This document shows, piece by piece, positions 24,813-48,400 of a stretch of DNA of 64,000 nt. A program made the position numbers and the translations under genes. This DNA is from Acanthochlamys bracteata (Eukaryota; Streptophyta; Magnoliopsida; Pandanales; Velloziaceae). Under the pieces are notes generated by a model. The model had not been told where the DNA came from and ran no database searches. It saw nothing but the letters and a program-made list of their open reading frames with translations. The stretch lies in NCBI GenBank assembly GCA_019914995.1, contig CM034138.1, positions 4,340,001 to 4,404,000 of the forward strand, in the 5' to 3' direction. Each line of letters starts with the position of its first letter. The first letter of the stretch is position 1.

Positions 24813-26303
24813 TGTTAGATAAACTTGTAAAATCAACTCAAAGAGGAGGGATAAATTGAGTTGATAATTAAAATTTTTTTGATTAACAGAAGTTCCTATA
24901 GGTAGCGGTTACCCAGCCAGCTATTTTTATGATAGGTCATGTAGAGAGTTGTTAGCACAACAGATTTTATGGCAAGCAAATTTAACAGTAAATCAAAGTA
25001 ACTCAGGAGATTTATGTGGTTCAATAGACCTTTTTGTCTACATATATGGATGCTCTATCAAAAGAGCTAAATATTCAATAAACTTTTAATAAACTACACT
25101 TAACAAGAGCAAAGTGATTCACCAAGCATACTTGTTCTTAAGGATTTTCTTACACCAAGTAATCATTCACAACCTACTGAACACACATATCTCCTTGACT
25201 GAACAGCTAGCATTGCTACAAAATTAATGAATTTCCAACAAGCTCCTACCAAGCCTCTCCCTCAAGAGCTTCAAGCACTTGGCCTCTGAATTACAGAAAT
25301 TAACACAAGTTATGCACATGATCAATCTCAAAGCAGAAATAAACTTAAACTATTCAAGTGAGATGATCAAAAGGCTGCCAGAAGGTGTGTTTTGAAGTTG
25401 ATCAACAATAATGAAGATTGTCTCTGTTTGAAAGATTTTAGTCTGTGTAATGCTTGTTTTTTCTTCTCTAAATTTCTCAGTGTTTTCCCCTTCTCTTCTC
25501 TTCTGCAACTCTTCTTCTTCTTATACTGTTTCTACTTGCATGAGAGAGCTTCTTCTTTCCGTTGAAAATCTTCAAGTTGAAGTCTCCATATCAACAGCAA
25601 GTCTCAAGATATTTTCATTGCTGCCTTGAAGCTCCCGTTTTTTTTTTATGGCTGTTGATGAAAAATATCCAGTAGTTCTCCAGTTGGTTCATGATTTCAT
25701 TTAGCTAGTCTAGTGCAAGCTTTTCCATCAGCATCAAATGCACCAGTAGAGAAATTCAAAACTCGCACCTGGCTGCTGTCACTTGCTTCAACTGGGTTGG
25801 CTTTTTTTCCTTGATGTGGACCTCAACAACTTATTTCTTATTTTCTACCTTGGAGCTGAGTTGGATGATGAATCTCCTTTGTGAATTTGTTGCTGATCAT
25901 CTTAGTTTTCATAGCTTGACTTATGTATTCTTCTCCAGTGATGTAAATATTATGAATCTTGAGATAATAATTCTCTATTCGTTTTCTGACTTAGGAATAA
26001 GGATTTAGCATCTAGACAGCTGACTGCTCATCTATCTGCGTGTGCTCTATTATCTGGATGCTGTTCATGCATATCTAAAGAAATTTCGCATTCAGGTAGC
26101 AACCAAGTAGCTAGCTGTTAGGTGGCTGTCTATAGGTAAAAAATCTTCTTGTAGCATCGTTGGCATGTTGTCTGCTAGGTGTAGGATAAATCTTTCTAAG
26201 ATCTTGCAGAACTTGATTGTAGTTGATTAGCTCAATTTAAGTCATAAACTATAATTCTTAATTATTATTATCGTCAAAATAAATCTTAGGGTTCCAACAA
26301 TTT
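24809..26303. mobile_element. Candidate solo LTR, probably Copia
   Basis: A block of about 1.49 kb starts TGTTAGATAAAC (24813) and ends GGGTTCCAACA (26299), matching the TGTT...AACA bounds of many plant Copia LTRs. The pentamer AATTT lies at both edges (24809-24813 and 26299-26303), overlapping the terminal bases by one, so the target duplication is suggestive and not clean. No gag or pol sequence adjoins it, hence a solo LTR. The small frame at 25811-26008 is not a recognisable gene. Confidence 0.45.
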
Positions 26304-26834
26304 AGTCTAATTCGAATATATTTATTTATCAAATTAAGATTTTTTTTATCATCATTATATTTTATGCTTGTATGTCATTAATTCACCTAAATGAGAACTT
26401 CCATAGACATTTACTATTGATATGAATTGTTTGAATTTGTGTTATGTATTTAAATTCAAAAATCAAATGTCTTAATGTACGAACATTTATTGATTTTGCA
26501 TCTATTTCTATTTCTTTCTATTAGTATTCTTCGTATATATTACTGTTTAATGGACATAATATATTTTATTGGTGTGAATAAGTTTAGTTTTACTTAGGTG
26601 CATCGGATCTTAATGTAGCAATCTCAATAGAAAAGTTTGCTAACCATACTGATAACAATAACAATGAAAAAGATTTTTGCATATAGTTTGGAAAAGATCA
26701 AACATACTAAATTTAATATTTATGGGAATGAGTGTTGTAAATAACATTAAATTAATTCTTTCTAGCAGAAGTGCTAAAAAATTTATATTAATTTATGCAA
26801 GAGTATTCCTAAACTATTCATAAGTCATTGGGAC
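26304..26834. other. Spacer, nothing recognised
   Basis: AT-rich DNA between the candidate solo LTR and the next hAT-type element. No gene, structure or repeat could be supported. Confidence 0.4.
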
Positions 26835-27293
26835 ACTACGGGCATAATTTAAAACCAACCCGGGATATGACTCGAAAAAGTTACCGGGTCACCGGTTAAC
26901 CGGACGGGTCATCGGGTCGACCCACTTGGTCAAATTAAATTTATTAAATAAATATTGATATATAAATATAATTATATGTATTATATAGTATTTTCGATAG
27001 CAACTATGAAAAAATTACAAAAATAATTACATACGAAAAATATTGAATATATTTTTAAAATTATATTTTTTATTTTTTTCAGCTACAATACTTAAAACAA
27101 TAGTCAAAAAACCTAACATATAGTAAAATCTCTATATTTTATGCATTACAAAAAACAAATTATCTACACTATATTGTATTTATTTATTAATTTCTAATAA
27201 AATATAAAAAATGAGAAAATAAATTAGTAATGAAAGAGTATCCGATAAAGTGCACATTTTAGAGTGCTAATAAAAATATTTTTTTATTTTAAA

Positions 27294-27335
<42 letters not shown>

Positions 27336-27518
27336 TTAAATAATAAAATCGGGTCGACGACCACCCAATAGGATCATCGAAGTCAATTTTAACCGGGTCT
27401 TACCGGGTCGCTTGCGCGACCCAATTTTATATTAACTCGGTCCGGAATCGGTGCCGGATCGTCGATTTTCAGTCCGACCCGGCCGGTCCGGGCCGAGTTT
27501 TAAACCTATGACTACGGG
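26835..27518. mobile_element. hAT-type non-autonomous element with 8-bp duplication
   Basis: The element spans 26843-27510 (668 bp) and is flanked on both sides by ACTACGGG (26835-26842 and 27511-27518). Ends read CATAATTTAAAACC and, inverted, CATAGGTTTAAAACTCGG. The subterminal 90-180 bases are rich in ACCGGGTC, CGGGTCGACC and GGCCGGTCC, while the core is AT-rich and holds an (AT)n tract at about 27296-27332. It has no coding sequence. The 8-bp duplication and the CATRGGTTTAAAAC-type end indicate the hAT superfamily. The perfect duplication suggests a fairly recent insertion. Confidence 0.87.
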
Positions 27519-27719
27519 TACCCTGATCACTATGAAGTTTGATGATTTTCATGTTAGATATAAGCATTTAACTGAAATGACAATCATTGTCATAAAATTA
27601 AATCTTTATAAATGAACATAGATGAGAATTTTCTACGATTTATTATTAAATCCTTACTTTCTTAATACGGTCAATTCCAATAAATTATAATACCATTAAG
27701 GATAAATAGAATGAGAGTG

Positions 27720-28305
27720 AAGTGCACACCATGCTTGTGTAGGAGGAGACAAAACTAAAGAGTTTAAAATCTCATCCGTTCATCTTTTTAATCATCAAGA
27801 TGTTGGAGAGAAAGCCGAAAGGAAAGTAAAAGAGCATTTAAGATAAATAAGTATTCTACTTCAATCCATAAAAACAAAATAATGATAGTAAATGTCGATT
27901 CTATAGGAAACATGTGCGCTATCTGAAAGATTGTCTAAAATGTAAGGAGTTAGTACGAAGAGAAAACCAAGTATTACACTTTTGTATGCTCTAAATCAAA
28001 TTTAGTTGAAATTACTTACAACATTTGGTGGATTGATTCTAATTATACCACTCATATTTTAAATATGAAAAAAGGATTTGATCCAAAACATAAATTCAAA
28101 CGAGAAGTTTATTTTCATTGAAATCGAGTGAAAGTTTCCATTGAAGCCATATTGGATATAAGTTGGACTTGTATCAAACACTATATAACTTCTACTTTTT
28201 GCAATTTAAAATCTTTGTTAACTATGACAAATGAATACCCCTTTAAATTTGAAAATGTGTGTTTTAGTTTTTGTGAACATAATCATACATTAGTTTTGGT
28301 ATCTT
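27720..28305 (+). mobile_element. Ty1/Copia fossil fragment (gag end and protease region)
   Basis: The + strand encodes pieces resembling the zinc-knuckle end of a Copia Gag and the start of protease (a WIDS-like site followed by a TTHI-like motif and VSIEAI). It is a broken remnant with no LTR of its own visible. It stops abruptly where the LTR-like repeat at 28306 begins. The age is old, judged from loss of frame and divergence. Confidence 0.6.
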
Positions 28306-29194
28306 ATTATCACGACCCAACCCAAAAGCCACGATCGGTATTGGACTAAACCAAGCCCAAGCAAAGTCTAGCCTAATAAGCCTATAAAAATTGACTTCAA
28401 AACAATGCGTGTAAGAATTTTCAAAAAAATTTCAGCAGAACTTTTTTTGAAAAATTAAGGAAAAACTTAATTGAAATAAACTAAAACCACAATACCACAA
28501 TTTCTTATAAATAACAACAAGACGAAGTAAAAACACGCAAAAGACTTAACAGCTTATACAACCACTACACGCGGTAATAAATTTCAACAATAAGAGAACA
28601 AATAAACCAACAATAGGGTACAAAGCCGATAATTTACAAATAATAATAAGAACAATACAGTCCTTTGAGTGTTGCAGAGCTAAGTAAATGAAATATGAAA
28701 CAACTAACATACCATGATGTGTCTTTAATCCACAACTGCGGCGTCCACTAAACTTAATTTAAAAATCCTATAAAGACTGAGAGAGGCCAAAGAAAACAAA
28801 GAGAGCAAGCCCAGTCTCAGTGAGGTGAAATAGCAGATGCACCATTTTAACATTTATAATGCATTACCTAATGTTTAATTCATATATTTATAATGTACAA
28901 AAATACAAGGGATTGATCAAGATCATTGCTACCAACTCCTAAATCGTCTCATACTGATTCATTCCTCAGTACGAGAGGATACGATAAGAATGAGATACAA
29001 CACATAACAATTCATTTCTTTTAATGAAGTTATTATGCTATATAGATTCCCTATTTTTTTGTTACACAGCCATACATATGCAGTTAATGTCTCAACTTAA
29101 TGAAAGTTTGCATATGCTTATGCCAGGCAATTCACTGTATACTATTTCAAGGTCATATACATTTTTATGTATGTCAACATACCCATTCACTCAT
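28306..29194. mobile_element. LTR-like repeat, left part (possible Gypsy LTR)
   Basis: It begins TATCACGACCCAACCC, like the TGTCACGACCC start of many plant Gypsy LTRs, and continues with TATTGGACTAAACCAAGCCC. It runs into an (AT)n tract at 29192-29212. The likely continuation lies at 42005-42420, on the far side of three inverted-repeat elements. No coding region is attached. It is treated as a fossil, and the family call is tentative. Confidence 0.45.
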
Positions 29195-29214
29195 ATATAT
29201 ATATATATATATGG

Positions 29215-32200
29215 TAGCAGATATGCGCACACATCAAATTTAGACCGTTTGATTGACACTCGCGTTTTATTTTTTACATAAATACTGTGGAAGAGCACGC
29301 TCGTACATAGTGTTACATGGGTATAAGTGTTTTTTTTTTCTTTAAATTTTTTTTCCCTCATTTCTTCTCCTCCCTATTTCTTCTTTTCTTCACTGGAGCC
29401 AGCTCCATAGCCTCTCTGAGCCGGCGATCGTCGGATTTGGGCAAAAATCTTAACACAATGTTGCCTCCTACTTTCTTCTTCCCTTAATTTGTCATTCAGT
29501 CGTTCCATTATCGCATTCGATCGAAAATCCGACGGCGGGTCAAATCTCGCGTGCCTGCCGACGAGCATCAATTTGGCAAGCAAATCGTGTTTTTTTCTTC
29601 GCCTCCTTCTTCTATTCCTATTTCCTACACTAATTACATCAATTCCAGCCTTGAGCACCGTCAAAACCGTCAATAATGAAGTCGATCTCCGCGGGTAGGA
29701 GAGATCCCCTGCCAGTGAGCCTCAACCCTGCCTAAATAATTCCGATTACTGGTATTCGATGTCTTTAGAGTTTATTATTAATATCTGCTATTTTATTTTT
29801 TGAATAAATTCTTTTTTTTTTCTGCTTTGCATTGTGTTTCCAGTGAGGTGCTAGAGCACTCGTAGGAACACATAGTGAACATGTTAGTATTCAAATTCCA
29901 AATTCATTTGTTTGTTTGTATTTCATTTCTTATGCAGTTTTGATTGTGGGACTGATTCAAGCGACGGATGCAATTTCATTAAATTTTTTTCCTTAGCATT
30001 GTAGTTGGTGATGTGCGCACAAATTTCATGAAAAGTCTTTTCTTTGGTTTTGCTTTCCTATGACCTTTTTTGTTTAGCTTTCAAGTGACGGAGGAGGACT
30101 TGCTTTCCAATGATGAGATCAAAGCATACGAGTGCCGAAGATGGAGCAACTATTATTTTCCAGTGATGAGATGGAATACAACATTGCTTTATTCTTCTTT
30201 GTTTTCTTTTTTTTTTCGCCTTCGTAATTTAGTTCCCTTATGACTACTTCAGCAATGTATGAAGACAGGTATAATGGAAGTGAGTATAAGTGAATGTATT
30301 GCTTTCCAGCAGTGTATGCAACTCTAAAGTGCTTCAACGAAGTGAATATAAGTGAATGTTATGCTTAAGTGGTGTTAAACTTGTGAATGTAATTTGGTAT
30401 AGTGTAATGTTATTGTTGTGAATGTAATGTTACAGTTTTTGAATTCTATGATGAGTTTCTAATGAATTGTGTTGTGAATGTTTTGTGCAAGTTGCCATGG
30501 AGGCTTGTAATGAATGATAGTTGAAATAAAGCCTATGTGAATGAGTAGTCAATGTGGAGTGGTTAATTTATGCAGTGAAGGAGTAGTGAACCTATACAGT
30601 GAGCTATATGTACATGAATGTGGAGTGAATGTTTGCAATGATGGTTGAAAACTTGTAAATTTTTCAATATCTAGCAGTGGTAAGCATAGCTCACTGGTAT
30701 CCTAACAGGTGAATACCTGACAGTAAGCTATGCTAGCTCACTATTAGCAGCAGAGCTCACTGGTCTACTACCAGTGAGCTGGCAGTCTCATGCCAGTGAG
30801 CTCCATTGCTCACTACTGCTAGTGAGCTACCAATGAGCTCACTAGTCAACAGAGCTCACTATTAGCTCCTGACCAATGAGCTTTTCTAGCACACTGGTAG
30901 CTAACTAGTGAGCTAGCAAAGCCAGTAAGGTCTCCCCTACCACCAGTGAGCTATGTTAGTGAGCTGAATAATACATTAACATTTATGAAACATTCACATT
31001 TGTCCACTCCATTCCAATCAGTATAACTCACTAGCATGTTAATTTTGAAATATTCACTTGTTTTTGCAATTAGTAAAACCAACCAGCTTTACCAACCAGC
31101 TTTCACATGTTAATTTTGAAATTATCAACCAACATTACTACCCAGTTTTACCAACCAGCTTTCGCTTGTCCATTCCATTCCAATCAAATTCACATTCACC
31201 AAATACCAACCAACATTACAACAATTACATTCTAGAGACTAGTTTGAATATTTATGAATACAAAACATTCACACGTCGCTACCAGCCAGCATTACATTCA
31301 AATTCACAACTCACAACCTCAGTTTGATGAGAGTCATTCACATTCCATTCAAAATCTCAGCATTACAATCACAAGTTTTCACAAAATATTCCTTTTTGAA
31401 CAAAACATTCTTTTCATTAAACAACTCATTCACAAGTTCAATATCTTACACCATCAAACAATTTAATTCCCAGCAATGGATATACATTCACATTCAAAAA
31501 AAAAAACAAAAAAACAAAAAAGTAGAGCAAAGAAGAAGAAGAAATTAAATTGGCGTCTTCACTGGTCTCCTTCTTTAGTGGTCTCTTGAATCTTTTGTTT
31601 ATACATTTGCATACAACAAAGAAAAACAGAAAAATGAATTAATCTTATAATCGAATCAGTCCCACAATCGAAACTGCATAAAAAATTGAAATCAAAACAA
31701 ACAAATGAATTTGGAATTTGAATACTAACCTGCTCACTATGTCTTCCTACGGGTGCTCGAGTGCCTCACTAGAAACACACTGCAAAAATAGAAAAAAAAT
31801 TCAAAAAATAAAAAAGCAGATATTAATAAAAAAACTCAAAAGACATCGAATACCAGTAATTAAGATTATTTAGGCAGGGTGGAAGCTCACTGGCAGGGGA
31901 TCTCTCTTAGTCGTAGCGATCGACTTTGTCATCGACGGCTTCGACGGTGCTCAAGGCTGGAATTGATGAAATTAGTGTGGGGAATAGGAATAGAAGAAGG
32001 AGGGGAATAAAAAAAACACGATTTGCTTACCGGATTGATGCTCGTCGGCCGGCTCGCGAGGTTTGGCCCGTCGTCCGGTTTTCGATCGAGTGCAATAATG
32101 GAACGACCGAATGACAAAATGAGGGAAGGAGAAAGCAAGAGACAGCATTGTGTTAAGATTTTCGTCGAAACTCGACGATCGCCGGTTTGGAGAGACGATG

Positions 32201-32436
32201 GATCCGGCGCCAGCGAAGAAGAGAAAAATAGGGAGGAGAAGAAATGAGGGAAGAAAAACTTAAAGAAAAAAAAAAACACTTATACCCATGTAACACTGTG
32301 TAAGCATGCCCTTACACAGTGTTTACGTAAAAAAATAAAATGCGGGTAAAATCTGAATCGTTCGATTACAATCGGACGATCCAAATTGGATGTACAGGAT
32401 GTGCACGTATAGTGGCGCGTGTGTGCTTATATGCTA
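29215..32436. mobile_element. Mutator-like element E1, non-autonomous, inserted at (TA)n
   Basis: Arms of about 750-780 bp form an inverted repeat: 29215 to about 29965 pairs with about 31655 to 32436. Shared landmarks include TAGCANATANGCNCACAC ends, ACATGGGTATAAGTGTTTTT, CGGCGATCGTCG, AATCTTAACACAATG and CCAGCCTTGAGCACCGTC. The arms lie directly in (AT)n on both sides (29192-29212 and 32435-32448). There is no transposase. The arms share organisation and a CGACGAGCRTCAA block with element E3 at 35092-41988, so E1 is probably a deletion derivative or sister mobilised by that family. Short frames in the arms are by-products of C/T-rich arm sequence. Confidence 0.8.
30680..30975. repeat. AGTGAGCT/AGCTCACT motif array inside E1
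   Basis: More than 20 near-copies of the self-complementary pair AGTGAGCT and AGCTCACT are packed into about 300 bases, with variable spacing of roughly 5-20 bases and no fixed period. Neighbouring motifs in opposite orientation can pair as hairpins. The same motif recurs in both arms of E3, so it belongs to the transposon family. Confidence 0.8.
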
Positions 32437-32450
32437 TATATATATATAGG

Positions 32451-35058
32451 GGAGGAATATGGGCACTCCTTCCCCTGTAGACACTCCCTTATGACGGTAG
32501 GCACTCCATACATCCAACGGTTGAGATGCAATCACGTCCGATCAGATCTAGTGCTTTACGTATTCTCTCTCCGTGTTTTCTTATCGTTCTTTTTCTGCTC
32601 TTCTTCTTCCTCCTCCGTGCTCCCGACCTTCTTCGGCATTTTTCCTACGGCTTTCTTCTTCTTTCAGTCCCTCTCATTCTCTTTCTTTCTTTTCTTTTCT
32701 TCTTCCTCTCCCGCGAGCTTTCAAGATCAGTCCTTTTCCACCACCGAGTGTAAATTGGATCTCGATTTTTTACCGCTACGAGAGATTTTGAGATTGAATC
32801 TTCGTTTCCCAGCTTTTCTTTGTTTTTGTCCAACTTTGATTTGCTTGTATTCCATTTTCTGTAGTTTTTTTTGTTTTTGAATTTTTTTAATGTATTGTTG
32901 TTTCCTTTGTGGATCTGTTTGTTCGCAACTCTGTTTTGCTTTTAATTCTGCTTTACTTATTCGTTCTAATGTGCTTTGCTTTGCTTCTGCTTTGTTCTGC
33001 TTTTTTTTAATTCTGTGGTAATGAAATCAGATCCACAAGTGTAGGTGGATGTTGTAATCAGCATATGGACAGAATGCTTGTCGATACTTGATTGTTGATA
33101 GCAGCATATTGACATTAATGAAATTAGTGTGCTTGTAACAGAGTGCTGTTGATTATTGTGTTGTAATGAGTGTTGTAGGTGCTGCTAGATCAAAGCACAA
33201 TGGAATATCAAAGTAAAATTTATCAATGTGATCAAGAAGTCTACACTGAAAAATGCTATCAATGTGATGTTAATAAGAAATGTACAACTGAATTTTGTAT
33301 GAAAATTTTTGCGGAAGAGAAATATTACACTATTTATTTTTGAAGTGTTCTTTATATATGTGTAATCTAGTTTAAATTAAAATAGTTCCTCTTTCAATGT
33401 TTGTGTGTTCAATTCAATGTAACAACAATTTATTTTCTAATGCAAAATTTATTTTATGTTCATTCATTAACTTTCTTTATAGATAACATTGCTCACTTAT
33501 GGATAACCATTCAACAACCACTGAGATTAAGAATATATTTATTCATCAGCTATTGAAAGGTAACTGGATGGATCTAGTCAATAAGATTGATCACAATTTC
33601 ATACAATGTTCTCATTGTACATCTCTAGACAAACATTTTCTACATTCTTTCCAATTTATACAAACATTTTCATACATCATTTATAAATTATATCATTTTC
33701 AAGCACAGCCCTTAGCAATACTTCAAGCATTCTTTCAAACTATCAACAAACATGTTACAGCAAGCACACCTGGTTGATGTATTGGGTCTATCTATAGCTA
33801 CTTACAACAGCAAGCACAACCCTCAGCACACGCATCCAGCATAACAATCAACAACACTCTATTACAAAAGCACATCAACTTCATTACTGCTCATGCGCTG
33901 CAGTCAACTATCAACAAGCATCTATCCATGTATTGATTACAACATTCATCAGCAGTCAGCACCTGCCAGATCCGATTTCATTACCATTAAATTAAAAGCA
34001 AAGCAGAAAAAATCAAGCAATACAATATAAAACAAATTAACCAAATCTGTCAATACACAAATAAACACTTCAACCAAATCTTCCAAACATATTAACCATC
34101 ATCGCAACCAAAAATTTGAAAGCTACCAGAGTATCATAAGCTAATCAATCCATTCAAAACAAGTTGTAAGAATCTAATGATAAACCCAAATCAACTGGAC
34201 ACAATTAGATTAAGAAAGAACTGTAAGAAAAGCCACATATCAGCAAGCTAAAAGTTCCATGCAAGCAGATTCACAAATGAAATAACAATCTATTAAATTA
34301 AAAAAAAAAGCTTGTTGATGTTTTGAAGTTTTTTGCTTCTCTTTTAATAGAAATAAAAACTACAGAGCATCAATGAGCTTTTGCAGTGAAGAAACATCAA
34401 TAAGTATTAAAAAGCTAAACATCGGAATAAAAATACAAAATTTCGAAACTAACTTGTTATCTTTCCCACTAATTTCGAACAAGCACAACAGTGGGAATAT
34501 CATATTTTTGAAAAAACATTAAGCAAAATCATCAAAGAAAATCAAGACAGAACAGATAAAATTGTAGCATAGTCGCTCGAGGTCGAATTCGAATTTCTCC
34601 GTCGATGCTCGAAATCGAGACCCATTTCACGGTCGTCTTGGTACGAACTTTGGCCGACAGGGACGAATCTCTTCCCACGGCTGGAAAACGAAGACTCAAC
34701 CTCAAAACCTCTCCCCGTAGCGGCGAAATTGGAAATCCAATTTCTGCTCAGCGGTGGAAACGGACTGATCTTGAAAGCTCGCGGGAGAGGAAGAAGAAAA
34801 GAAAAGGAAGAAAGAGAATGAGAGAGACAGAAAGAAGAAGAAAGCCATACGAAAAATGTTGAAGAAGATCGGGAGCAGGAGGGAAGTCAGGAGCACGGAG
34901 GAAGAAGAAGAGCAGAAAAAAAACGATGAGAAAACACGGAGAGAGAATACATAAAGCACTAGATCTGATCGGACGTGATTGCATCTCAACCGTTGATGTA
35001 TAGAGTGCCTACAGTCATAAGGGAGTGTCTAAAGGAGAAAGAGTGCCCATATCCCTCC
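32451..35058. mobile_element. Fold-back/Mutator-like element E2 at (TA)n
   Basis: The ends are GGAGGAATATGGGCACTC (32451) and, inverted, GGAGGGATATGGGCACTC (35058). The arms stay highly similar for about 400 bp (CAACGGTTGAGATGCAATCA, TCCGATCAGATCTAGTGCTT, CTCTCTCCGTGTTTTC, CCCGCGAGCTTTCAAGATCA) and continue more weakly to about 33180 on the left and 33790 on the right. The right arm carries extra DNA at about 34060-34570. Both edges abut (TA)n. There is no transposase. C/T-rich arm sequence creates spurious Ser/Phe-rich frames on both strands. The end sequence differs from E1 and E3, so it is a separate family with the same target taste. Long arms with little loop fit the fold-back type. Confidence 0.75.
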
Positions 35059-35089
<31 letters not shown>

Positions 35090-35091
35090 CA

Positions 35092-36975
35092 CGAGTGCGA
35101 TATGAGCACACAGGTTACTGTGCGCGCACATCACACACATCAAATATGCTCCGTCCGATTAAGATTGGACGGTCCATACTTAACACCTTACATAAATATT
35201 GTTTTTTTTTCCTTCATTTCTCCCCTTCACTCCCTCAGACTTCTTCGTCCCGCTCCCGACCGATGTCACCGTCGCCGCTCTCGTGATTAGAGAGATCCTG
35301 GTCGAAATTTAACTCAGTGGAGCCTACTCTCTTCTCCTTCCTTCAATTTTAGATTTTTAATCTCCTTTCTCGCAGCCGATCAAGTAACCCTCCTGTGCCG
35401 ACCGACGAGCGTCAAATCGGTAAGAAGTTGTCTTTTTTTCTTCTCCTCATTTTTCTTTTCCTATTCTTCACATCAATTTCATCAATTGCAAGCTCGAACA
35501 TCGTGGAAGACGATTTTTTCAAATTCGTGCGCACCCGAGCTCACCGGACTTCTTTTTCGAATTCGATCATTACCGAGATTGCTGATATTATCCTTACTTT
35601 CAACGTTTACCAATATTTAGTTTTTTATGATGTTTTGCATTTTTTTTTGTGTAGGTGCAATCCGGTATTGGAGCCGGGGTAAGAGGAGATTCATTTGCAG
35701 TTGCAATCTTTTAATTAAAGATATCTTTTATTCTGTGATTAATTTCGTTATTGTTTTTACTTTCTTTTATCTGCTCTCTGTTTTGCAGGACAATCGCACA
35801 TATAGAAGAGATCATCAATATTTTTGCTGCTCTGGAGCTCACCGGATGCAACTGAATGGCTCTGGAGCTCGCTGGAGTGGCTCTAGAGCTCACTGGAGTG
35901 TCTTTGAGCCCACTGGTAATGATTTCTTGTGTCTTTCATTTTTTTTTTGAGTTTCATGAATGCTGATTCTTGGGCAATAAATGAATGTTTGTAAATGTAG
36001 TGTGTATTTAGACTATGAAGACAATGCATACTGCAAATTGTGTTTGCTGTATATGTATGAATGTAACTGTAAGTGTTGTAAACTTGTGAACAAGATTGTA
36101 GCTTTTGTTGTGAATGCAATGTAAAAATTTTTTACAAATTTATGTTATGAATGAAATGTGATTATAATTCTCTAGTTGGTATCTAATCATGTGTGAATGT
36201 GAATGTGAATGTGAAGTGAATGAGAATGTATGAATGTGATGAGAATGTTGTCAATGTTTAAATGTGAAGTATACAAACAACAGTGAGCTGTGTATATGAA
36301 TATGGAGTGAGTATAGACCAGTGAGCTATGTTCTGGCAGATGAATGCTTGCCAGTGGTAGATGTATATATCACTAGTAAGGGAATACATGATAGTGAGCT
36401 ATGCTCATGGCTTGCAGTGGGACACATAACTCACTGGCAGGACCAGTGAACTCCAGAGCTCTCTGGCAGCTGGCCAGTGAGCTCACTGTTAGCTCATTGG
36501 TCAGCTGTCAGTGAGCTCGCTCGTTTCCATCCAGCGAGCTCACTGGTCTCCGGCGAATGAGCTCACTGGACTCGCTCAAATCAAAATAAATTTTAATTTT
36601 AAAACTTTTTTAGTCGGAGTTATACCATGTTGTTTAAATAGATTAAACATAACAAAATTATTTTTTTTACAATGCAACTTAACAAAACCTGTTTTTTTCT
36701 AACATTGAGCTAGCATAGCTCATTGTCCAGTGAGCCTCACTGGACAGTGAGCTCACTCATTTCCAGCGAGTGACCTCACTAGCCAGACCAACCAAAATAA
36801 ATTTTAATGTTAATTTTTTTTAGTCGAAGTTGTACGATGTTGTTTAAATCGATTAAACATAACAAAATTATTTTCTTTAACAATGCAACCTAACAAAACC
36901 TTTTTTTTCTAATATTGAACTATGCAAGCTCACTAGACAGTGAGCTCGCTACTCACTAGTCTCCTGCGAGTGAGC
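35092..36975. repeat. Left terminal inverted repeat of E3
   Basis: It matches the inverse of 40075-41988. The outer 500 bases contain the CGTCCGATTAAGATTGGACGG palindrome-like tract and splice-like signals shared with the right arm: donor GGTAAG at 35420, acceptor GTAG ending 35654, donor GGTAAGAG at 35679, and acceptor TTTTGCAG ending 35788 before GACAATCGCACATATAGAAG. The inner part (36270-36975) carries AGTGAGCT arrays and tandem units. Similarity drops out near 36975. Confidence 0.75.
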
Positions 36976-37170
36976 TCACTGGCCAGTCCAACAAAAAAAA
37001 ATTTTAATTTTAAATTTTTTTTAGTAAGAGTTGTACGATGTTGTTTAAATAGAAATGAACGTAACAAAATTATTTTTATTTTACAATGCAACTTAAACAA
37101 CACTGAGCAATATAGCTTGAACAAATTGAATATAACAAATTATTTTATTTTTTTTAATAAAATGCAACTT
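36560..37170. repeat. Tandem units of about 205 bp in E3
   Basis: Three successive units share ATAAATTTTAATTTTAA, then TAGTCGGAGTTGTACGATGT, TGTTTAAATAGATTAAAC, ATAACAAAATTA and TTACAATGCAACTTAA. Corresponding positions (TAGTCG, TAGTCG, TAGTAA) fall at 36611, 36821 and 37022, so the spacing is 201-210 bases. AGCTCACT words separate the units. Two inverted units are present in the right arm near 40229 and 40474. The units are non-coding and AT-rich. Confidence 0.8.
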
Positions 37171-37239
37171 AAGTAATTTCAGTGAGCTCCAGAGCTAACT
37201 AAAGAGCTCACTAGCCTCCTTCTATTGAGCTCTATAGCT

Positions 37240-39740
37240 CACTGTAGTCCCAAAAAATCCGAAAATACATTCATCATTCTACTCTAGTCGAATAGCTAAG
37301 TCTTCATCTTCAGTATCTTCATCTTCACTTGTATTTTTATTTTCAAAATCATCTCTACCAGTAGCTAGCAAGTACAAACATCATGATAAATATCAAAATC
37401 TTAATAAAAAATTTTACTCTTTTGGAATTAAAACTAAGCAAATGAGTAAATTTACTTGTCTTATTATTTCTATTTGGATTATCAGGACAATTTTGTTTAT
37501 CATGTTTGACACCAGATTTGTTACATACGCATATTTTCGGCCTGCCTTCGTTTTGGCTTTTAAAATGGCTTTCTTCAACTCTCCTTTTATTCTAGTGTTG
37601 CCATTGCAAGCCTTCCTTCTTTACTTCTTTTCTTTGTTTGTGATATGTTAGGATTTAAAAGCAACTTGGGAGGCATCAACTGAGTCTTGTAAATTTTTAT
37701 TGTGTATAAATAAATGGATGATTGGAATCTTATCATGATCATTAGTCTTCCTTACTTTCTTGAGCCGCACCGTTTGTTTATTCCAATGTTTGCAATAAAA
37801 TTTTGTGTACTTCATCGGTTTCAGCAGCCTCATAAATCGTTGAAAACCTTCTAGGATTGGATAGTTCTCAATAGTTCAGCATTGTCATAGCCACTTACTG
37901 AACCTCCATCATACTTATCTCTGTATTTATTGGCACATTTTCTCCATCGTTGCAGAATAAAATGATCAGGTATTTCTATATCTCGAATTTGAAAGACTTT
38001 CACAAGATGTCCACAAAAAATCTCCATAAACTCAAAAAGTTTGCATTCGCAGCTACCTTCTTTTATGGCTGCATTAAACTTCACCTTCCATTCCTGTCGA
38101 TCATCTTCAACACGAAACTTATAAATATAAATCGTGTATCCATCACTATCCTTTTCATTATCATGCAAGATATACTGAGATTGAGCTTTCTCATATTCCT
38201 GTTTGAACTTATTATACACATTTCTCATATACAATTTTACTGCACTTTTCAAGATATCGGAGTTGCCTTCCACAATGTGATATAAGTGTTCAGACACATA
38301 ATCTTTTTTTTTGCTTTCTCAATAATTTTACTCTAACATTTCTCATTCTTCAACACAAACTCTTGAAAAGTTATCGTGGGATGAAAATCTTTTTATAAAT
38401 TCCATTCATACCTTCGGAACGCTCAGTAGTATTAGTGCCGGTATAAAAACTATTCAAATGATAGACAGGTGCCCACTTTTGTAGATTCTCGTATATTATT
38501 AATAGCCATTCATTTTTTGCAACTCATATGTAAACATCAATTCCTCCCACCTTCACATGTGCTAGGATTAAAAGTTTTTCGAAAACACGACTTGGTATCT
38601 TTTTTAAAATTTGACTTCTTAAAATAAATATGCGAAAGCTTTTCGACAAATTTTTTCATAATATACCATAAACAAAATCTATGTCGTGTATTTGGGAATA
38701 CCTTAGCAATGACTACAGTCATAACTCTATTTTGATCTGTGATGATTGAAAATAGAGCACGTTTCACCAAAAAATTTCTTCAGTCTCATCCAAAAGTAGT
38801 GCGCAGACAAATTGAATTGATATATTGTGATGGTTAACTCCAACGAATGAAGCAAATGGCATCTCATAGACATTCTTGTGGTAGGTGGTGTCAAAAAAAC
38901 ACAACGTCACCAAAATAATGATATTGACTACGTGACCTTCTATCCACTCAGAAAAAATTGATTGCTCTTGAGTATTCATCCATCTGTATCGCATAAAGAA
39001 AGTTTGGATCTTCTATACTCTTCCTTTTAAAAAAGTTAAACGTTGCGGTGGCATCACCATTGATAGACTTTTTGTACTCTTTCGAACAACACAAATTGTT
39101 CCAACAATCTCTGTTATCAAAACCATATTGAGATTCGTCAAGAATATCGGCAACCTTAGCCACAGGTATACCTTCATCGTAAAATGAATCAATCAAATTC
39201 TTAATTGCAGTGGGCATATTTTTGCAGACAGACATACGCATTCTTTTTGCCGGACTAATTAGATTGTGATTGTATTGGCCTTCATAACTCACCACTTTTC
39301 ACAATCTACTAAGTTGCTTTCTCACCCTCATTATTGCAAGACACCCGTATTTGGCCGTGCTCGTGCTTCTCTTGTTTTGTACTGATTTTTCAGGTTCCTC
39401 GTCCATTTTTTGAGGTCGATGTCTTTTATGATTTCCAAAGTGGTCACAAGTCATTTGACAAATAATGACTTTGTCTAAAAGAGCACGGATCTTTTGCGTA
39501 GATCGAGTCACTGCGCTAAACCTTTCGGCTTTTTCATAATTTATATAAAATTGCTTCGCATCTTCGAGGCTTACAAATGTCATCCCTAAGCATGGTGACT
39601 TGAGATTATCATTTACTATGTTTGGAGTTGGTTGAGAAGAAGGTCCGGCCCGAGACCTACAAATTTTCAAAGAAAATAATACAAGACAACAAAAATTACA
39701 AATGTTATTGAATGTAACAGAAGTGCCAAAAAGTTTCATA
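37240..39740 (-). pseudogene. FAR1/FHY3-type Mutator transposase, eroded
   Basis: In coding order: a FAR1 DNA-binding domain at 39300-39640 (GMTFVSLEDAKQFYINYEKA, then a C/H-containing MTCDHFGNHKRH), linker at 38950-39300 (YEGQYNHNLISPAKRMR, NFLYAIQMDE), the MULE transposase domain at 38540-38990 (FDTTYHKNVYEMPFASFVGV, LLDETEE, SIITDQN, KVFPNTRHRFCLW), a SWIM zinc finger at about 37990-38060 (CECKLFEFMEIFCGH) and a zinc-knuckle-like tail at about 37480-37560 (RPKICVCNKSGVKHDKQNC). The reading frame shifts near 39297, 38960 and 38767, and about 15 residues expected between DETEE and the ITDQ catalytic Asp are missing, so it is a pseudogene. FAR1/FHY3 transcription factors descend from this transposase type. 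Location between matching inverted arms excludes a host FAR1 gene. Confidence 0.82.
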
Positions 39741-39749
39741 TAATGCCGT

Positions 39750-39960
39750 TGAACTGGTTAGACATGGTGTAGGAGTTTAGATGTAAGAGGAAGAATAAAA
39801 ACAAAAAGAGCAATCCAGTTTATTTCTTATTTGTTGTCGAAACAGAACACCTAAGAACAACATAGCAGAACAACAGAACAGAGAGCCTTCTCTGTTTCCC
39901 GCGTTATAGCTCTCTTCCACTCAAAACAGATGCACCTAAATGGGCAATGAAAAAAATGAC
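39750..39960. other. Unassigned insert upstream of the transposase relic
   Basis: About 200 bases starting near GACATGGTGTAGGAG have a different composition from the surrounding element and resemble neither arm. They could be the original 5' leader of the transposase or a small later insertion. There is no coding signal. Confidence 0.3.
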
Positions 39961-40074
39961 CTCTGCTAAGCTTGTTATAAAATTTTCTCTACTTGGTGTT
40001 GTTCTGTGCTCAATTTTTTTCTTCTTCAAATACAAACATGTGTACAATGGCAGAAAAATCAACGAGAAACCAAT

Positions 40075-41988
40075 GAGCAGCTCGCTAGATAGTGAGCTAT
40101 ATTATGCTAGCTCACTTGCGAGTGAGCTTGCATAGTTCAATATTAGGAAAAAAAGGTTTTGTTAAGTTGCATTGTAAAAAAATATAATAATTTTATTACG
40201 TTCAATCTATTTAAACATCTTACAACTCCGACTAAAAAAAATAAAAATAAAAATTATTTTGGTTGGACTGGCCAGTGAGCTCACTCACGAGAGACCAGTG
40301 AGCTCAATGGCCGAAAACGAGTGATCTCACTGACAGTGAGATTTTCTAGCTCACTTGATAGCGAGTTATGCTATGCTAGCTCAATGTTAGAAAAAAAATA
40401 GTTTTGTTAAGTTGCATTGTAAAAAATAATAATTTTGTTATGTTTGATCTATTTAAACAACATCGTACAACTCCGACTAAAAAATATTTTTAAAATTAAA
40501 ATTTATTTTGGTTGGAGCGAGTCCGGTGAGCTCACTCGCTGGAGATTAGTGAGCTCACTGGCCGGAAACGAGTGAGCCACTGGCAGCTGACCAGTGAGCT
40601 AACAGAGCTCGCTGGTTCTGGCAGTAAGCGTTGTATCCCGTTGCAAGCCATGAGCATAGCTCACTGTCATGTATTTCCTTACTAGTGACATATGCATCTG
40701 CCACTTACAAGCAAGCATTTATCTGCTAGAACATAACTCAGTGTTATATACTCACTCCACATTCATATACATAGCTCACTGCTGTTCTTAAACTTCACAT
40801 TTAAATATTGACAATATTCTCATTACATTCATACATTCTCATTCACTTCACATTTACATCCACACATGACACATTAGATACCAACCAGAGAATTTTAATC
40901 ACATTTCATTCATAACACAAGTTTGTAAAAAAAATTTACATTGCATTTACGACAAAAGCTACAACCTTGTTCACAAGTTTACAACACTTAGAGTTACATT
41001 TATACATATACAGCAGACATAATTTGCAATCTGCATTGCCTTCATAGTCTACATACACACTACACTTACAAACATTCATTAATTACCGAAGAATCGGCAT
41101 TCATGAAAAAGGATAAAAGCACGAAAGACACAAGAAATTATTAGCAGTGAGCTCCAAAGCCATTCAGCTGCATCTAGTGAGCTCCAGAGCAGCAAAAACA
41201 TCGATGACCTCTTCTATATGTGCGATTGTCCTTCAAACAGAAAGAAGATAAAAGAAAGTAGAAGTAACAATGAAAATTAATTACAGAATAAAAGATACCT
41301 TCAATTAAAAGATTGCAATTGCAAATGAATCTGCTCTTGCACCGGCTCCGATACCGGACTACACCTACATAGAAAAAAACAAAACATCATAAAAAGAAAT
41401 AAATATTGGTAAATATTGAAAGTAAGGACAATACCAGCAATCTCAGTAATGACCGAATTCGAAAAGAAGTCCGATGAACTCGGGAAGGCACGATTTCGAA
41501 AAAATCGTCTTCGACGATGCTTGAGCTTGCAATTGATAAAATTGATGTGAAGAATAGGAAAAGAAGAATGAGGAGAAGAATAGAAGACAACTTCTTACCG
41601 ATTTGACGCTCGTCGGCCGGCACAGGAGGATTTTCGCCGCCGTCGGGTTTTTTAATCGGCTGCGAGAAAGGAGATTAAAAACCTAAAATTGAATTAAGGA
41701 GAAGAGAGTAGGCTCCATTGAGTTAAGTTTAGACTAGGATCCCTCCGGTCGCCGGCTTGTAGCGGCGACGGAGAAATCGGGTTGGGAGCGGGACAAAGAA
41801 GTCGGGGGAAGGAGAGGGGAGATTTGAAGGAAAAAAAAAAAAACACCTGTTATACTGTGTAAGAGCACGCGAAATTACAAACATGTCGTTACACAGTATT
41901 TATGTATGGTGTTAAGTAAGATCGGACGGTCCATATTTGATGTGCGCGATGTTCATGCACAGTAACATGTGTGCTCACATTGCACTCG
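40075..41988. repeat. Right terminal inverted repeat of E3
   Basis: This is the reverse complement of 35092-36975, with the same order of blocks: AGTGAGCT arrays (40080-40800), the CATTTATACATATACAGCAG relatives, the leader-like segments around 41220 and 41345-41370, the CGACGAGCGTCAAATCGG block near 41600, and the end TTACTGTGCATG inverse near 41950. Transcription of the transposase would start here and run leftwards. Confidence 0.75.
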
Positions 41989-42004
41989 ATATATATATAT
42001 ATAT

Positions 42005-42430
42005 ATATTATCTATATAAGCTAGTGTATGATAATAATGTATGCAATGTATCAGAAGAGGCCATATAGCTTAACTGAGCGAGTAAGGCCATCTTCAACTC
42101 GCATCATGCCGCTATACATATCACACAAGCATACATACATAATACCTTTATATATCAAAGTCAAACAAACTCGGTGCCCTGTATGCTCTGGAACCTACTG
42201 GCTATTCATATCTCATAGTTCGATGTCGAGTATGTCCTAAGACCCATTGGCTATCTATATATCTCATTGCGCAGTACATCATGAGACCCACCGAAAATCC
42301 ACATCTCATAGCTCGATGCCCAGTATGTACTGAAACCTACCGGCTATTCATATATCTAGCTGTCTAGTATGTCCTGGGACCTAGTGTACGTGTAAGTATT
42401 CATAGTATAGGTTAAAACAATACTTATTAG
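42005..42430. mobile_element. LTR-like repeat, right part, with four ~48-bp tandem units
   Basis: The sequence resumes after the (AT)n tract with CTATATAAGCTAGTGTATG. At 42165-42375 about four imperfect units of 46-50 bp repeat the pattern CTACTGGCTATTCATATCTC / GTATGTCCTGAGACC. Such subrepeats are usual in long plant LTRs. This is probably the far side of the repeat that begins at 28306, split by E1, E2 and E3. The link is inference from order and the shared AT tract. Confidence 0.45.
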
Positions 42431-43735
42431 ATTCTGCATTGTCCCATACCAATACAGTTCTTAACAAATAGATGTAATATAATAGATTTTTACACAATGA
42501 AGATGCTATGTAAAATCTTGTGTTTGAATTGATCAAACATTGCAACGGTTAGAATAAATACGAGGTCAAGATCTAATTCCAACGGCTAGTTTATGTGTTA
42601 TTTCAGCTGCAACTCCTTCTATAAAATTTTCTTTGATTTATTAACTTGGCTAGCTGTTTTATTTCTGATGTGGATCTCTTCTATTATGCCTCCTCAGGAA
42701 GACGTCTTTCAAATCTAAAGTGAATTGGACGTCATATCATGTTTCAAAACAATCCAACGGTTCAAATGCTTCCAATGATTTTTGCTGACATGTCATCCGA
42801 ATATTGTGATAGATTTCATCTAGGAACCAATATGATTTTTTTTCGTAGAATTAATCTCAGGGATGTCGTCCAAAATCTGTATGTAAAGATGATATTAAAA
42901 TTTAAATGGATGACCAAGATATGAGTGTTTAAAGTAGATCTAGTAGGAGATGTATGCATGCCGGATTCTTTCCATTTTTATAGGTATTCTTGATATCTTC
43001 CAATATCCTTTCCATAAAATCTGAAAATAAATATTCTGAATATATCTATTATTGATCTAGCCTCTTTCGAAATCAGCTGCAAGTAATTTGCATGAGTAGG
43101 AAATTAAAAATAACTCAGGCGCACTCATAGATAGCATGGTACTGTCTAGTCTGGAATGTATTTTATCCTGTCACTTTAAGGATTTTTCAAGACTTCTTTA
43201 GTGGATGATTTTGCCTCAAATTTTAACTGTGGATAGACTTTTGAATTAGCTACTAGTACCAAATTCAGATCTTTAAAATGTGATTCGAGCTGAGAGATAT
43301 TGCGTTTGCACGCCGCTGTCCAGAAGAGGTTCACTAGGGTGTATCCGGAGTTGATAGGTGCAAAACAGCGAGATTTTCCGTTTTTTGTAAAAATCATTTT
43401 TTCATGCAATGACCTGAATTTTGGACAATATTAAAGGTGTCTTCTAATTAAAGAAAAGTTTGATCATGAAAGTATTGCTTGACCAGAGATATATTGCATT
43501 TGAAAGATTGCTGTCCGGAGAGCTAGAAGCTAATTTGTAAAGTGTTTATGCGATCATCAACATTAGAAAATTTTTTTGTCGTTGATACTTGATGAAATTT
43601 CTTCAGTTTTGACTTTATTTACTCTTTGACATATCCTCTTTCAACTGGAATAAAGAAATCCCAAATTTATTGACTAAGTTAAAAGTTATTCAGCATAATA
43701 AATAGCTTGCGATAGATTTAGAACACTTAGTAAAA
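42431..43735. other. Repeat-like DNA, unassigned
   Basis: No open frame of note. Phrases such as GCTGTCCAGAAGAGG and GCTGTCCGGAGAGC, spaced about 190 bases apart, suggest degenerate LTR or internal retroelement sequence, but I cannot assign a family or ends. The - strand frame at 43176-43409 has no recognisable domain. Confidence 0.35.
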
Positions 43736-43739
43736 CTTT

Positions 43740-44540
43740 TATCCTTATTTTGTCCATCTACCAAATAATCTTGTCCAAAGCTAAACAATGATTCTCAAAT
43801 ATGTGTTAGCATTAAAACACTTGAAATTTCTAATGATGTATATATAGATGCTGACTGGGTTGGAGCAATTGATAATAGAAGGTCCATCTCAGGTTACTTT
43901 ATATTTGTGTGAGATAATCTAATTACATAGAGAAGTAAAAAATAAAATATCGTAGCACGCTCAAGTGGAGAAGCTGAATTCAGAGGTTTATCACTTGAGC
44001 TTTGTGAGGTATTATGGTTGAGAGATCTTCTGTAAGATTTGGGATTTACATCTAAGCAATCGATTCGATTATATTGTGATAAAAAGATAGCTTGTGTTAT
44101 AGCATATATAATCCATTCCAACATGATCGCACAAATAATATTGAGGTAGACATGTTCTTCATTAAAGAGAAATTAGATAGAAAAGTTCAAGAGTTGTCTC
44201 AGAATTTCATCATAAGATCAGTTTGGCAACATTTCACCGAAACAGTTTTAAAGTATATATTTTTAAAATTTTTAGACAAATTGGGTATGTGTGATATTAT
44301 GCACTAATTTGAGTAAGAGTGTTGACATATTTAATTAGATGTATTTCATACTTTATATTAAGATATTAGATATCTTTCCTAATTTAGATATAAAATATAA
44401 GATATAAGATATCTTTCCTACTTTAGATATAAAATATTCTTCCTATTTTAGATAGTTGTGTCCCATATATATTGTACTCTTCTATTGAGAAATAATAAAA
44501 GTAAATTCTACATGTGATTTTATCTATCATGCCTTAATTT
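43740..44540 (+). mobile_element. Ty1/Copia fossil, RNase H end and 3' LTR
   Basis: The + strand shows Copia RNase H landmarks (DADW, RRSISGYF, VARSSGEAEFRGLS, RLYCDKK) followed by an LTR-like segment that starts TGTTGACATATTTAATTAG at about 44321 and ends near 44540, with repeated GATATCTTTCCTA words. It is a broken, 5'-truncated copy with several breaks. It may be the 3' part of the same Copia insertion whose gag/protease relic lies at 27720-28305, with younger elements between, but that is not proven. Confidence 0.65.
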
Positions 44541-44569
44541 GTTTCATTCTTCATCATTTCGTTATACAT

Positions 44570-44705
44570 ATTTGCAACTATGATAAACATCAGTGGAGAG
44601 AGTTGTATTCCCTACCTGAACCCCCTTGAGAGTTGGATATAGCCTTTAATAAACTATGTGGTTATGTCCATCCGAAGCACCTAACTTTGTATACCAGTTA
44701 TTGCC
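44570..44705 (-). mobile_element. Possible LINE reverse transcriptase fragment
   Basis: On the - strand a short stretch resembles the plant L1-type reverse transcriptase motif RGxRQGxxLSPxLF: it reads SRGFR, a stop, then GIQLSPLMFIIVANMYNEMM. The Gln of RQG is replaced by a stop codon. Only about 45 residues are visible, with no adjoining endonuclease or poly-A tail seen. Low confidence because the match is short. Confidence 0.35.
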
Positions 44706-45403
44706 TCCCATCTCGTGTAAATGACCCACGCCTTATCGACAATCTACACTAGCTGCTTTTGAAGCAAGTACAACTTACACTATTATTTATTTATTTAAAG
44801 AGTTCTACCTTAATTGATGCAAGATAAATGAAATGTATGCAATTCGGAATTGTTTTAGTGGCATGTATGTCACCATTGCTGCACTCGGGTCCAAATCTTT
44901 CACGATTTCTTTCATGCACCATTACCATAAGAATTTTGCTAACTTTCATGCTTTGTTTCTTTGATTCGAGGTCGACCGCTTCTAGCTCTTATGATTCGTC
45001 AAATCTACGCTAGTCTTCGGAGTTCTTCTTTAATTCAAGCTCTTCTTCCGTTCTTTTAGACTCAAGTACATGATTTTGTTATATTTGTTTTAGGTTTTGC
45101 TATTTTGGTGATTAATATCAAAATCTTTCAAGCAGAACGTGCATTATGACTCACTCTTCAATAATTCTCTCACCAGCACCATTTATCCGTTCAGACTGAA
45201 AATAAGGATCTAATAAACAAAAAAAAAAGTAACTTTAGCAACACTAACAAAAAAAATTTCTAAAAGTTCTGAAAAAGAAGAAGAAGAAACTGATTTGATG
45301 TGGGTGTTTGACCGTACTAGATTGGTGAGAGGCAGCATAAGAAGCGTTAGAGGAGACTAGTGGTGCTTCAAAGAACGGCAGCGGCAAAGTGAATCCACTT
45401 GTC
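44706..45403. other. Spacer before the Copia element
   Basis: No recognisable gene. A + strand frame at 44828-45013 and Ser-rich segments near 44990 show no family features. Composition is that of decayed repeat DNA. Confidence 0.35.
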
Positions 45404-48400
45404 TGTTGGGTTCCCTCCTATGTGAGGATCCAAATATATTATCTCGTATCCTACTGATGGTATGTTGTAATTTAAAAATAAAATAAGAAAAGATGAAAGA
45501 AAGATTAGGGAGAGGGTTTTTTGGCAGCGAGATAACTGCCAACCGCAAGAGAAAAGAGAAAAGAAGGAGAAGAAAGAGAGATTGAATAGGAGAGCGAGAG
45601 AAAGAAGGTGAAGAAAAATGGAAGGGAAGAACCCTTGTTAATCTTTGTTGTTGTAGAATCCTTCACCATTTGGCTCAATTTTATCTTCCTCAAACTCTAG
45701 GTGATTTTGTTCTGAACTTTTTTTATTTTGGATTGATCAGACAGTGGATTGATGATAGTGTCTTCCATCATGTGTGGTTAATGACAGATGCTCAAAAATT
45801 GTGGGCAAAATTAGAGAGTCTCTACGAGAGAAAGATAGATCAGAATAAGGTGTTTCTTATTCGAAAAATTGTGAACATGAAGTACAAAGACGGAGGCTCC
45901 ATAGCCGAGCATTTTAGTAGCTTCTAGAATGTAATGAACCGAGTCACAGGCATGGGAATAGTGATTGATTTTGATGTACAAGCTCTCCTATTACTTAGTT
46001 CCTTATCGGACATTTGGAAAACTCTAATTGTCTCACTTAACAATCAGCTCCAAATGACAAGGTAACAATGCAAATGGCGATGGACAGTATATTGAATGAA
46101 GAGAGTAGAATGAAAGACTTAGGCATTACTCACAAATATGATCTACTGGCAATTGAGAGTAGAGGGAGAAATAAATTAAGACACACATATCATTACGGTA
46201 GCAAAAGCAAGTTAAGAGAAAAGTTCAAGTCTCAAAAGAATATTGAGTGCTACTATTACAAGAAACTAGGCTATATGGAGATAGTGTAGAAAGAAAAAAC
46301 ATAACATAACTAGCAAAGGATATGTTGAGAATAATGAAAAAAAGAATGCCACAACAGTTGCATTCAATGGCGATATCACCGTTGTCTATAATGAAGCATA
46401 TGTTAATCTCACTATTGAAGGATTCTTCATGGGTGATTGATTCGGATACTTTTTCCCACATCTCTTGTAAAAAATATCTTTTCACATTTTATACTTGTGG
46501 CGATTTATGTAGACTAAGAATGACAAATCAAGATGTGTCCAAACTCATCGACATATGGATGTATTGTTAGAGACCGACCTTGGATGCAAATTATTTATGA
46601 AAAATATGAGACATTTTTCTAATTTGCGTCTCAATTTGATCTATACTAAAATACTTGATGATGAAGGATATATGCATAGACATGGTGAAGGAAAATGAAA
46701 GCTCAGTAAAAACACCATTGTGGTGGCAAGAGGTTAGAGGATTGGCTCTTTCTATTTTACTCAAGCAAAGTTGTGTACGGAAGAAGTGAGCACAGTTGAT
46801 AACTCATGTACTAATCTTTGGCATATGCGTCTAGGCCACATTGGAGAAAAGGGATTTCAGATTTTCTAAAAAAAGAATCTTCTACTTTTAGATAGTATAT
46901 CTCTTGGAAGTTGCACTCATTGTTTAATAATAAGCAACATAGAGTAGCATTTCAGAAATGACTTTCATCTAGAAGGTCATACATTCTAAACTTAGTACAC
47001 ATGGATGTATGCTCTATAAATGCTACTTCTCTTAGCGGTGCTATATATTATGTTTCTTTCATTAATGACCACTGCAGAAAAGTCTGATCTTCTGTTTGAA
47101 GCCTAAACACCAAGTATTCGAGGTGTTTAAAAATTTTTATTCAAGTGTTGAAAGAGAAACAAGAAAGAAGGGTCAAATGAGTTCGGGCAGGTAATGGTGT
47201 AGAGTACAGAGGATCATTTCAACGATACTATCAATAGCATGGAATCCAGATTGAAAAGACTATTCTTAACACACCTCAACATAATGGAGTTGCCGAGAGG
47301 ATAAATCGCACTATTTGCGAGAGAATTTGGTCATGCTCGCACATGCCAAACTTTCAAAGTCATTTTGGAGTGAAGCAATGCGCACAACGGTGGATGTGAT
47401 CAATCTTTTCCGTTCAGTTCCACTTAACTTTGATGTGTCTCAACATGTGTAGACAAGTAAAGAAGTCTCTTATGATCATTTGAAGGTATTTGGTAGTAAA
47501 AATTTTGTGCATATCCCAAAAGATGAGAGGTTCAAGCTCGATGCGAAATCCAAACACTATATATTTTCTGGTTATTGTCATGAAGAATTTAGCTATAGAC
47601 TTTGGGATCCTGTTGACATGAAGATTTGTCAGAAGCAGAGATATTTTTTTAAACCAAACCATTACAAACTTTGAGAAGAGCAAGAAGTCAAAGTATACTC
47701 CAAAAGCTTACGTTGATTTGGTCCCAAGCACCTCTACACCTATGACACAACATGAAGGGGGAGTTATGTATGATAGTGGCAATGATATTGGTGGTGACCA
47801 TAATGCATCCCATAAAGAAGCTTTGCATGAGCAAGACGAAAACGTCTATCCACCAATTCAGACTCAAGTGAGAAGATTCAATATAGACCCTCAGCCTCCT
47901 ACTAGATATCCTCCTAATTAGTATGTTTTGATTGCAGATAAGGGAGAGCCTGAAAATTATGAGAAGCAATGTCACATTAATGCAAAGGTGAATGGTTAAG
48001 AGCTATGCAAGAGGAGATGCAATCCTTGCATAAGAATGACACATTTGAGTGGTGAAGATACCAAACGATAAGAAGGCACTTAAGAACAAGTGGGTCTTCC
48101 AATTGAAAGCTGAAGAATATAACTCACAATCAAGGTACCAGACAAGATTGGTTGTGAAGGATTTTGGTCAAAAGAAAGTTATTGATTTTGAAAAAAAAAA
48201 TTTCTCCAGTTGCGAAGATGTCCTCAATCCGAGTTTTTTAGACCTTTCGCAAGCATGACCTTAAAAGTGGAACAACTTGATATGAAGACCGCATTTCTAT
48301 ATGGTAATTTAGAGGAGGAGATTTATATGAAGCAACCATAAAAGTTCAAAGTTAAAGACAAAGAGGATATAGTTTGCAAGTTGAAGAAAAGTTTATATGA

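Follow-up and report, generated by a model that had tools for sequence, protein, structure and literature searches.

How do several long inverted-repeat transposons come to stand in one row, none of them inside another, with TA repeat at every boundary? This question is raised by three elements, E1, E2 and E3, which follow one another in the 64-kb stretch of DNA that was analysed here (the window). Our best explanation, to which we assign a probability of about 0.72, is an un-nested array of three Mutator-like elements (MULEs) that target TA microsatellites, in which E3 would be a dead element of the Jittery type, E1 its gene-less kin, and E2 a member of another family. The evidence base is one locus, with one copy each of E1, E2 and E3.

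Three elements and the TA tracts between them

By inverted-repeat detection and self-BLAST of the window, we have found three consecutive long inverted-repeat elements, whose structures and junctions can be read directly: E1 (29213–32434, 3.2 kb), E2 (32449–35058, 2.6 kb), and E3 (35087–41988, 6.9 kb). A perfect alternating TA tract occupies each of the four junctions, i.e., (AT)10 at the left outer junction (29193–29212, 20 nt), (TA)7 between E1 and E2 (32435–32448, 14 nt), (AT)14 between E2 and E3 (35059–35086, 28 nt), and (AT)10 at the right outer junction (41989–42008, 20 nt). No element interrupts another. The locus shows one of the features by which an array of the SaTar type is recognised, namely several TIR elements in a row, un-nested and joined by microsatellites. 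The earlier note had described three separate long inverted-repeat elements at TA tracts, which is borne out by the four perfect junctions and the lack of nesting, and its element coordinates agree with ours to within 5 nt.

Exact alternating A/T tracts of at least 10 nt number seven in the 64-kb window. Five of these reach at least 14 nt, and four of the five are the cluster junctions. The fifth, (AT)18 at 27297–27332, is the longest exact TA tract of the window and lies 1.9 kb left of the cluster; among the pairs listed, no long-arm element adjoins it, the listed pairs being the tract's own palindrome. When the outer flanks (26000–29192 and 42009–46000) were compared with each other by BLAST against the window, the only matches among those listed were TA-tract matches to 41989–42019. 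Just right of the cluster, at 42170–42381, there are short, imperfect direct repeats that align over 75 and 61 nt (77–79% identity).

In BLAST alignments, the inverted arms show 85.4% identity over 706 aligned nt in E1, 86.1% over 381 nt in E2, and 80.5% over 1824 nt in E3, the last including internal sub-repeats. Among the longest 25 of 63 inverted pairs, 24 lie within one element (80–97% identity) and one links E1 to E3 (74%). The E1 arms align poorly over the outermost 45–90 nt, since the left end is without a 23-nt and a 19-nt stretch that are present at the right end, and the BLAST arms end at 29258 and 32347. For this reason the exact ends of E1 have been set by the end motif shared with E3 together with the TA junctions. 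Arm divergence amounts to 0.175 ± 0.018 substitutions per site in E1 (outer 740 nt), 0.125 ± 0.021 in E2 (outer 370 nt), and 0.144 ± 0.013 in E3 (outer 1100 nt). An insertion order drawn from these values was rejected as uninformative, because the arms of long-TIR elements may already differ when the element inserts, and because the three values lie no more than 2 standard errors apart.

As a control for long-arm elements outside the cluster, the two outer parts of the window were treated apart, with arms at most 10 kb from each other. The best 25 of 29 pairs were judged in the left part and all three pairs in the right part, and among the pairs listed none was judged comparable with E1–E3. 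The longest (2646–2780 and 3699–3833) measures 135 nt at 73% identity, is A+T-rich, and has further short pairs adjoining.

Several other features of the window may be recorded. A+T-rich inverted pairs at 2639–2836 and 3648–3833 (at most 135 nt, 73–83% identity, ~0.8–1.1 kb apart) possibly represent a small inverted-repeat element. A 137-nt unit stands in two tandem copies at 18705–18978 (99% matches), and the direct repeat at 45404–45709 and 49537–49844 (~309 aligned nt, 84% identity, 4.1 kb apart) perhaps consists of copies of a small element. A reading frame at 14473–14856 on the minus strand has matches among endo-beta-mannanases whose structures have been solved (best E 4.2e-28), while no Pfam family is matched by it at E 0.01.

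Kinship, transposase remains and terminal motif

The arms of E1 and E3 share 71–77% identity in four sub-terminal stretches of 111–224 nt each (BLAST), and judged from their sequences the two elements are of one lineage, with E1 as a diverged relative of E3. They also share an 8-mer, AGTGAGCT/AGCTCACT, with 46 sites in the window, 13 of them in E1, 33 in E3, and none elsewhere; the mean in 30 Markov sequences is 1.5 per window. The arrays extend over 30598–31884 in E1 and 35887–41176 in E3, and could be putative sub-terminal repeats for protein binding. In E3 the sites lie on both sides of the coding region, while 12 of the 13 sites in E1 are found in the middle of the element (30598–30958). 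This arrangement suggests an origin of E1 from an E3-like ancestor that lost the gene between its two arrays.

E2 gives no BLAST match with E1 or E3 at E 1e-4. A transposase gene was detected neither in E1 nor in E2: the six transposase pieces of E3 reach a best E of 0.30 against E1 and 0.58 against E2, and of the 19 reading frames of at least 60 aa that overlap E1–E2, the two of 116 aa and 153 aa (the latter at 32419–32880) have no Pfam match near the cut-off. With its long TIRs, its terminal motif, and no gene found, E2 is a putative non-autonomous, MULE-like element of another family.

E3, on the other hand, retains the remains of a transposase gene at 37854–39757 on the minus strand, in six pieces, between which the frame changes four times and one in-frame TGA occurs; neighbouring pieces overlap by 62 and 13 nt or are separated by gaps of 16 and 55 nt. 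Its domains are directly visible in Pfam comparisons. The MULE domain PF10551 is divided between two reading frames, with scores of 39.6 and 32.4 bits against a cut-off of 27.6, and a SWIM finger lies C-terminal to it (21.0 bits, cut-off 19.6). The FAR1 match, with the stop read as X, covers positions 1–89 of 90 at E 7.6e-06, and its 27.0 bits are just below the cut-off of 28.1; without read-through of the stop it falls to 19.7–19.8 bits. The 50-aa piece at 38374–38523 has no Pfam match and was assigned from its position and by visual inspection. Since the gaps of 16 and 55 nt are below the typical size of plant introns, we take the gene as dead. Compared by domain layout only, the order FAR1, MULE and SWIM is that tabulated for the plant sub-group of Jittery elements (PMC6446971), and E3 is probably a formerly autonomous element of the Jittery type that is now dead. 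The FAR1-type transposase which the earlier note had attributed to one of the elements is supported, as a broken gene in E3. In IMG/VR, a pattern search with the 155-aa SWIM piece returned seven stretches, none confirmed as a relative, and the E3-end pattern returned no match. The E2-end pattern hit one contig (L001), an 18-mer without TA repeat in 131 bases, which is best taken as chance.

All six ends carry a terminal motif, RTRTRNGCACNC, which begins 2–13 nt from the element end. It is located at 29221–29232 (plus strand) and 32421–32432 (minus) in E1, at 32457–32468 (plus) and 35041–35052 (minus) in E2, and at 35100–35111 (plus) and 41969–41980 (minus) in E3, and the only other match in the window is at 20344, which makes seven. 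Both ends of E2 have the form ATATGGGCACTC, 6–8 nt from the TA junction, which is close to the end motif of E1 and E3. The pattern RTRTRNGCACNC was written after all six ends had been viewed, which is its weak point, and a fairer motif was built from E1 and E3 only. On that motif each end of E2 agrees at 10 of 12 positions. Sites with at least 10 of 12 number 29 in the window, i.e., the four defining ones, the two of E2, and 23 others; from these 23 background sites and 15 offsets, the chance of the E2 match is ~0.003, the two E2 ends being counted once as copies of each other. A chance value of 0.00035 belongs to threshold 11, which E2 does not reach. A further control, based on 2000 segments drawn at random from the cluster, gave 0.0075, from a pool that contained the ends themselves.

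On sequence grounds, the end types of E1/E3 and E2 may be distant variants or may reflect a common recognition site. The earlier note had spoken of two unrelated end types; as E1 and E3 form one lineage and E2 bears a similar motif at both ends, the word 'unrelated' is not secure. A bolder idea, which we put forward only tentatively and consider doubtful, is that RTRTRNGCACNC is a signature common to differing MULE families, and that one FAR1-type transposase both moves them in trans and directs them to (TA)n. If this were true, one targeting machine acting on several families would build arrays. As a separate observation, the 7-mer CACGCGC occurs at 32415–32421 on the minus strand, near the right end of E1. 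It equals the binding site of the FAR1-type factor FHY3; as a single 7-mer, its occurrence here is likely due to chance.

How the row may have formed

MULEs are described as moving by cut-and-paste, with duplications of 8–11 bp (PMC5907723, PMC6446971). In our preferred explanation, a MULE transposase probably put each element into a tract of (TA)n. By splitting the tract, every insertion would leave TA on both sides, so that the site would stay attractive and later elements would land beside, but not inside, the earlier ones. The row could grow without nesting in this way, because the TA that remains on both sides after each insertion can be hit again. A target duplication of 9–11 bp, if any, would be concealed within the TA repeat. 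As is expected if the duplication sits there, the 45-nt flanks of each of the three elements, and those of the whole cluster, contain no exact non-TA repeat of 9–11 bp. For the targeting, for the sequential history, and for the transposase that moved E1 and E2, we infer rather than observe; a history of sequential hits fits this single locus.

The same architecture would also result if circular copies, with microsatellite filler between their ends, recombined homologously with a genomic TA tract, which stacks elements without cut-and-paste. Such a model was offered in PMC5907723 for SaTar arrays, because many flanks there are unlike target duplications, and at our cluster a target duplication is likewise not visible. 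However, a duplication inside TA would be invisible anyway, so its absence says nothing about recombination, and related families do show 9–10 bp duplications at copies outside microsatellites (PMC4486113, PMC5907723); we regard recombination as unlikely. Another counterpoint to targeting is that the TA tracts might have expanded later or might belong to the elements. If the repeats are parts of the elements, or are generated by them through ends that seed repeat growth, they would reveal little of target choice. The tracts here are perfect despite an arm divergence of 0.125–0.175 substitutions per site, so that their present lengths are probably not the original ones, and according to PMC5907723 the empty sites of maize elements are short TA stretches that were enlarged after insertion. 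On the other hand, MuTAnT empty sites averaged nine TA repeats (PMC4486113), and PMC5907723 reports that, of 51 rSaTar2 sites on rice chromosome 1, 20 correspond in the other subspecies to empty TA tracts whose length varies. In addition, E1/E3 and E2, which are unlike beyond the end motif, would each need to carry TA. An origin of the tracts from the elements appears improbable to us, and it overlaps with our preferred explanation if the targets were short TA sites.

Arrival of the whole cluster as one composite block, in a single event, is compatible with a single locus and with the common lineage of E1 and E3. Against it, identical clusters were not found in pineapple, from which the authors concluded that whole clusters may not move (PMC8449440), and the arm divergences of the three elements differ (0.175, 0.125, and 0.144), though not decisively; we consider such an arrival very improbable. 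Finally, the window has an A+T content of 67%, and ordinary MULEs in such AT-rich DNA might abut TA repeats by chance. However, 30 order-1 Markov sequences contain no tract of at least 14 nt, and the 51.2 kb outside the cluster contain one. The chance for a junction to fall within 2 nt of such a tract is accordingly ~2e-4 each, a rough figure since it is based on a single tract, and there are four junctions; coincidence is hardly credible.

Comparison with known systems

Stacking of TA-joined MULEs is already published in several plants, and the locus described here is a fresh example of it. The earlier note had referred to TA preference in grasses. This precedent does exist, as Micron of rice and TAFT of maize are flanked by (TA)n (via PMC4486113, PMC5907723), and the TIRs of Micron are described as similar to those of an autonomous MULE (PMC5907723); the preference is also known outside grasses, i.e., in Medicago, guayule, citrus, and carrot. 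The phrase 'TA microsatellites' also occurs in the text of a paper on arthropod MULEs (PMC13359780).

The closest likeness in architecture is offered by the SaTar elements of PMC5907723, with 15 families in guayule and further ones in rice, sorghum, and citrus, where different MULEs form multimeric, un-nested arrays flanked by microsatellites, often (TA)n. More than 300 guayule clusters are reported there with no element interrupting another, some families have long TIRs, and the arrays include defective autonomous members with TA flanks. The sizes differ, however, since non-autonomous SaTars measure ~0.23–1.9 kb as compared with 2.6–6.9 kb here, and AgS-MULE1 has 5.3 kb with TIRs of 400 bp, while the inverted arms of E3 reach ~1.8 kb. 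The terms FAR1 and Jittery are absent from the main text of that paper.

MuTAnT, a TA-targeting MULE family of the eudicot Medicago truncatula, resembles our elements in its foldback-type long TIRs and in having a Jittery-like transposase (PMC4486113). Of its 218 copies, 14 lie outside perfect TA microsatellites and have 9-nt duplications, and the autonomous, Jittery-like AutoMuTAnT is flanked by 59 and 27 TA repeats. In contrast to the present elements, 90% of the MuTAnT copies are 200–300 bp long, and no multi-family rows are described in the main text of PMC4486113. The search mask for MuTAnT TIRs matches the six ends here at 9 of 16 bases at best (15 offsets each), which does not place them in that family. 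The link between a FAR1-type transposase and TA targeting in a eudicot, proposed in the earlier note, already follows from published work: TA targeting in Medicago was connected with a Jittery-like transposase in 2015 (PMC4486113), and the transposase of Jittery has FAR1 as its N-terminal domain (PMC9569675). Within the collection of papers searched, we have found none that joins microsatellite targeting, FAR1, and transposon in those words.

Among shorter elements, the Ac-mMITEs of pineapple form 4024 microsatellite-joined, un-nested clusters, in which almost pure (TA)n joins the members and two families are alike in their distal TIR segments (PMC8449440). Unlike E1–E3 they are short MITEs (510–570 bp in Ac-mMITE-1), and the authors report that no autonomous element was found. 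The carrot MiMs comprise 15 families with more than 2000 copies in TA stretches, with putative autonomous Mutator relatives for three families; they are MITEs as well, and multi-element rows are not among the features described in the relevant parts of PMC8227079, where it is stated that the way in which such elements reach TA repeats remains unclear. The Jittery group, for its part, is like E3 in having a MULE domain and a C-terminal SWIM (or CCHC) motif, and its N-terminal FAR1 has a probable counterpart in E3 (PMC6446971, PMC9569675), but the TIRs of its plant sub-group are 39–292 bp or lacking, i.e., shorter than the E3 arms (PMC6446971); the word microsatellite is absent from PMC6446971.

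Overall, to the pattern known from SaTar, MuTAnT, and mMITE elements this locus adds large members and, inside the row, a recognisable coding remnant of the FAR1/Jittery type. A genome that holds both this coding element and its stacked relatives would be a test bed on which the transposase can be set against recombination as the steering agent.
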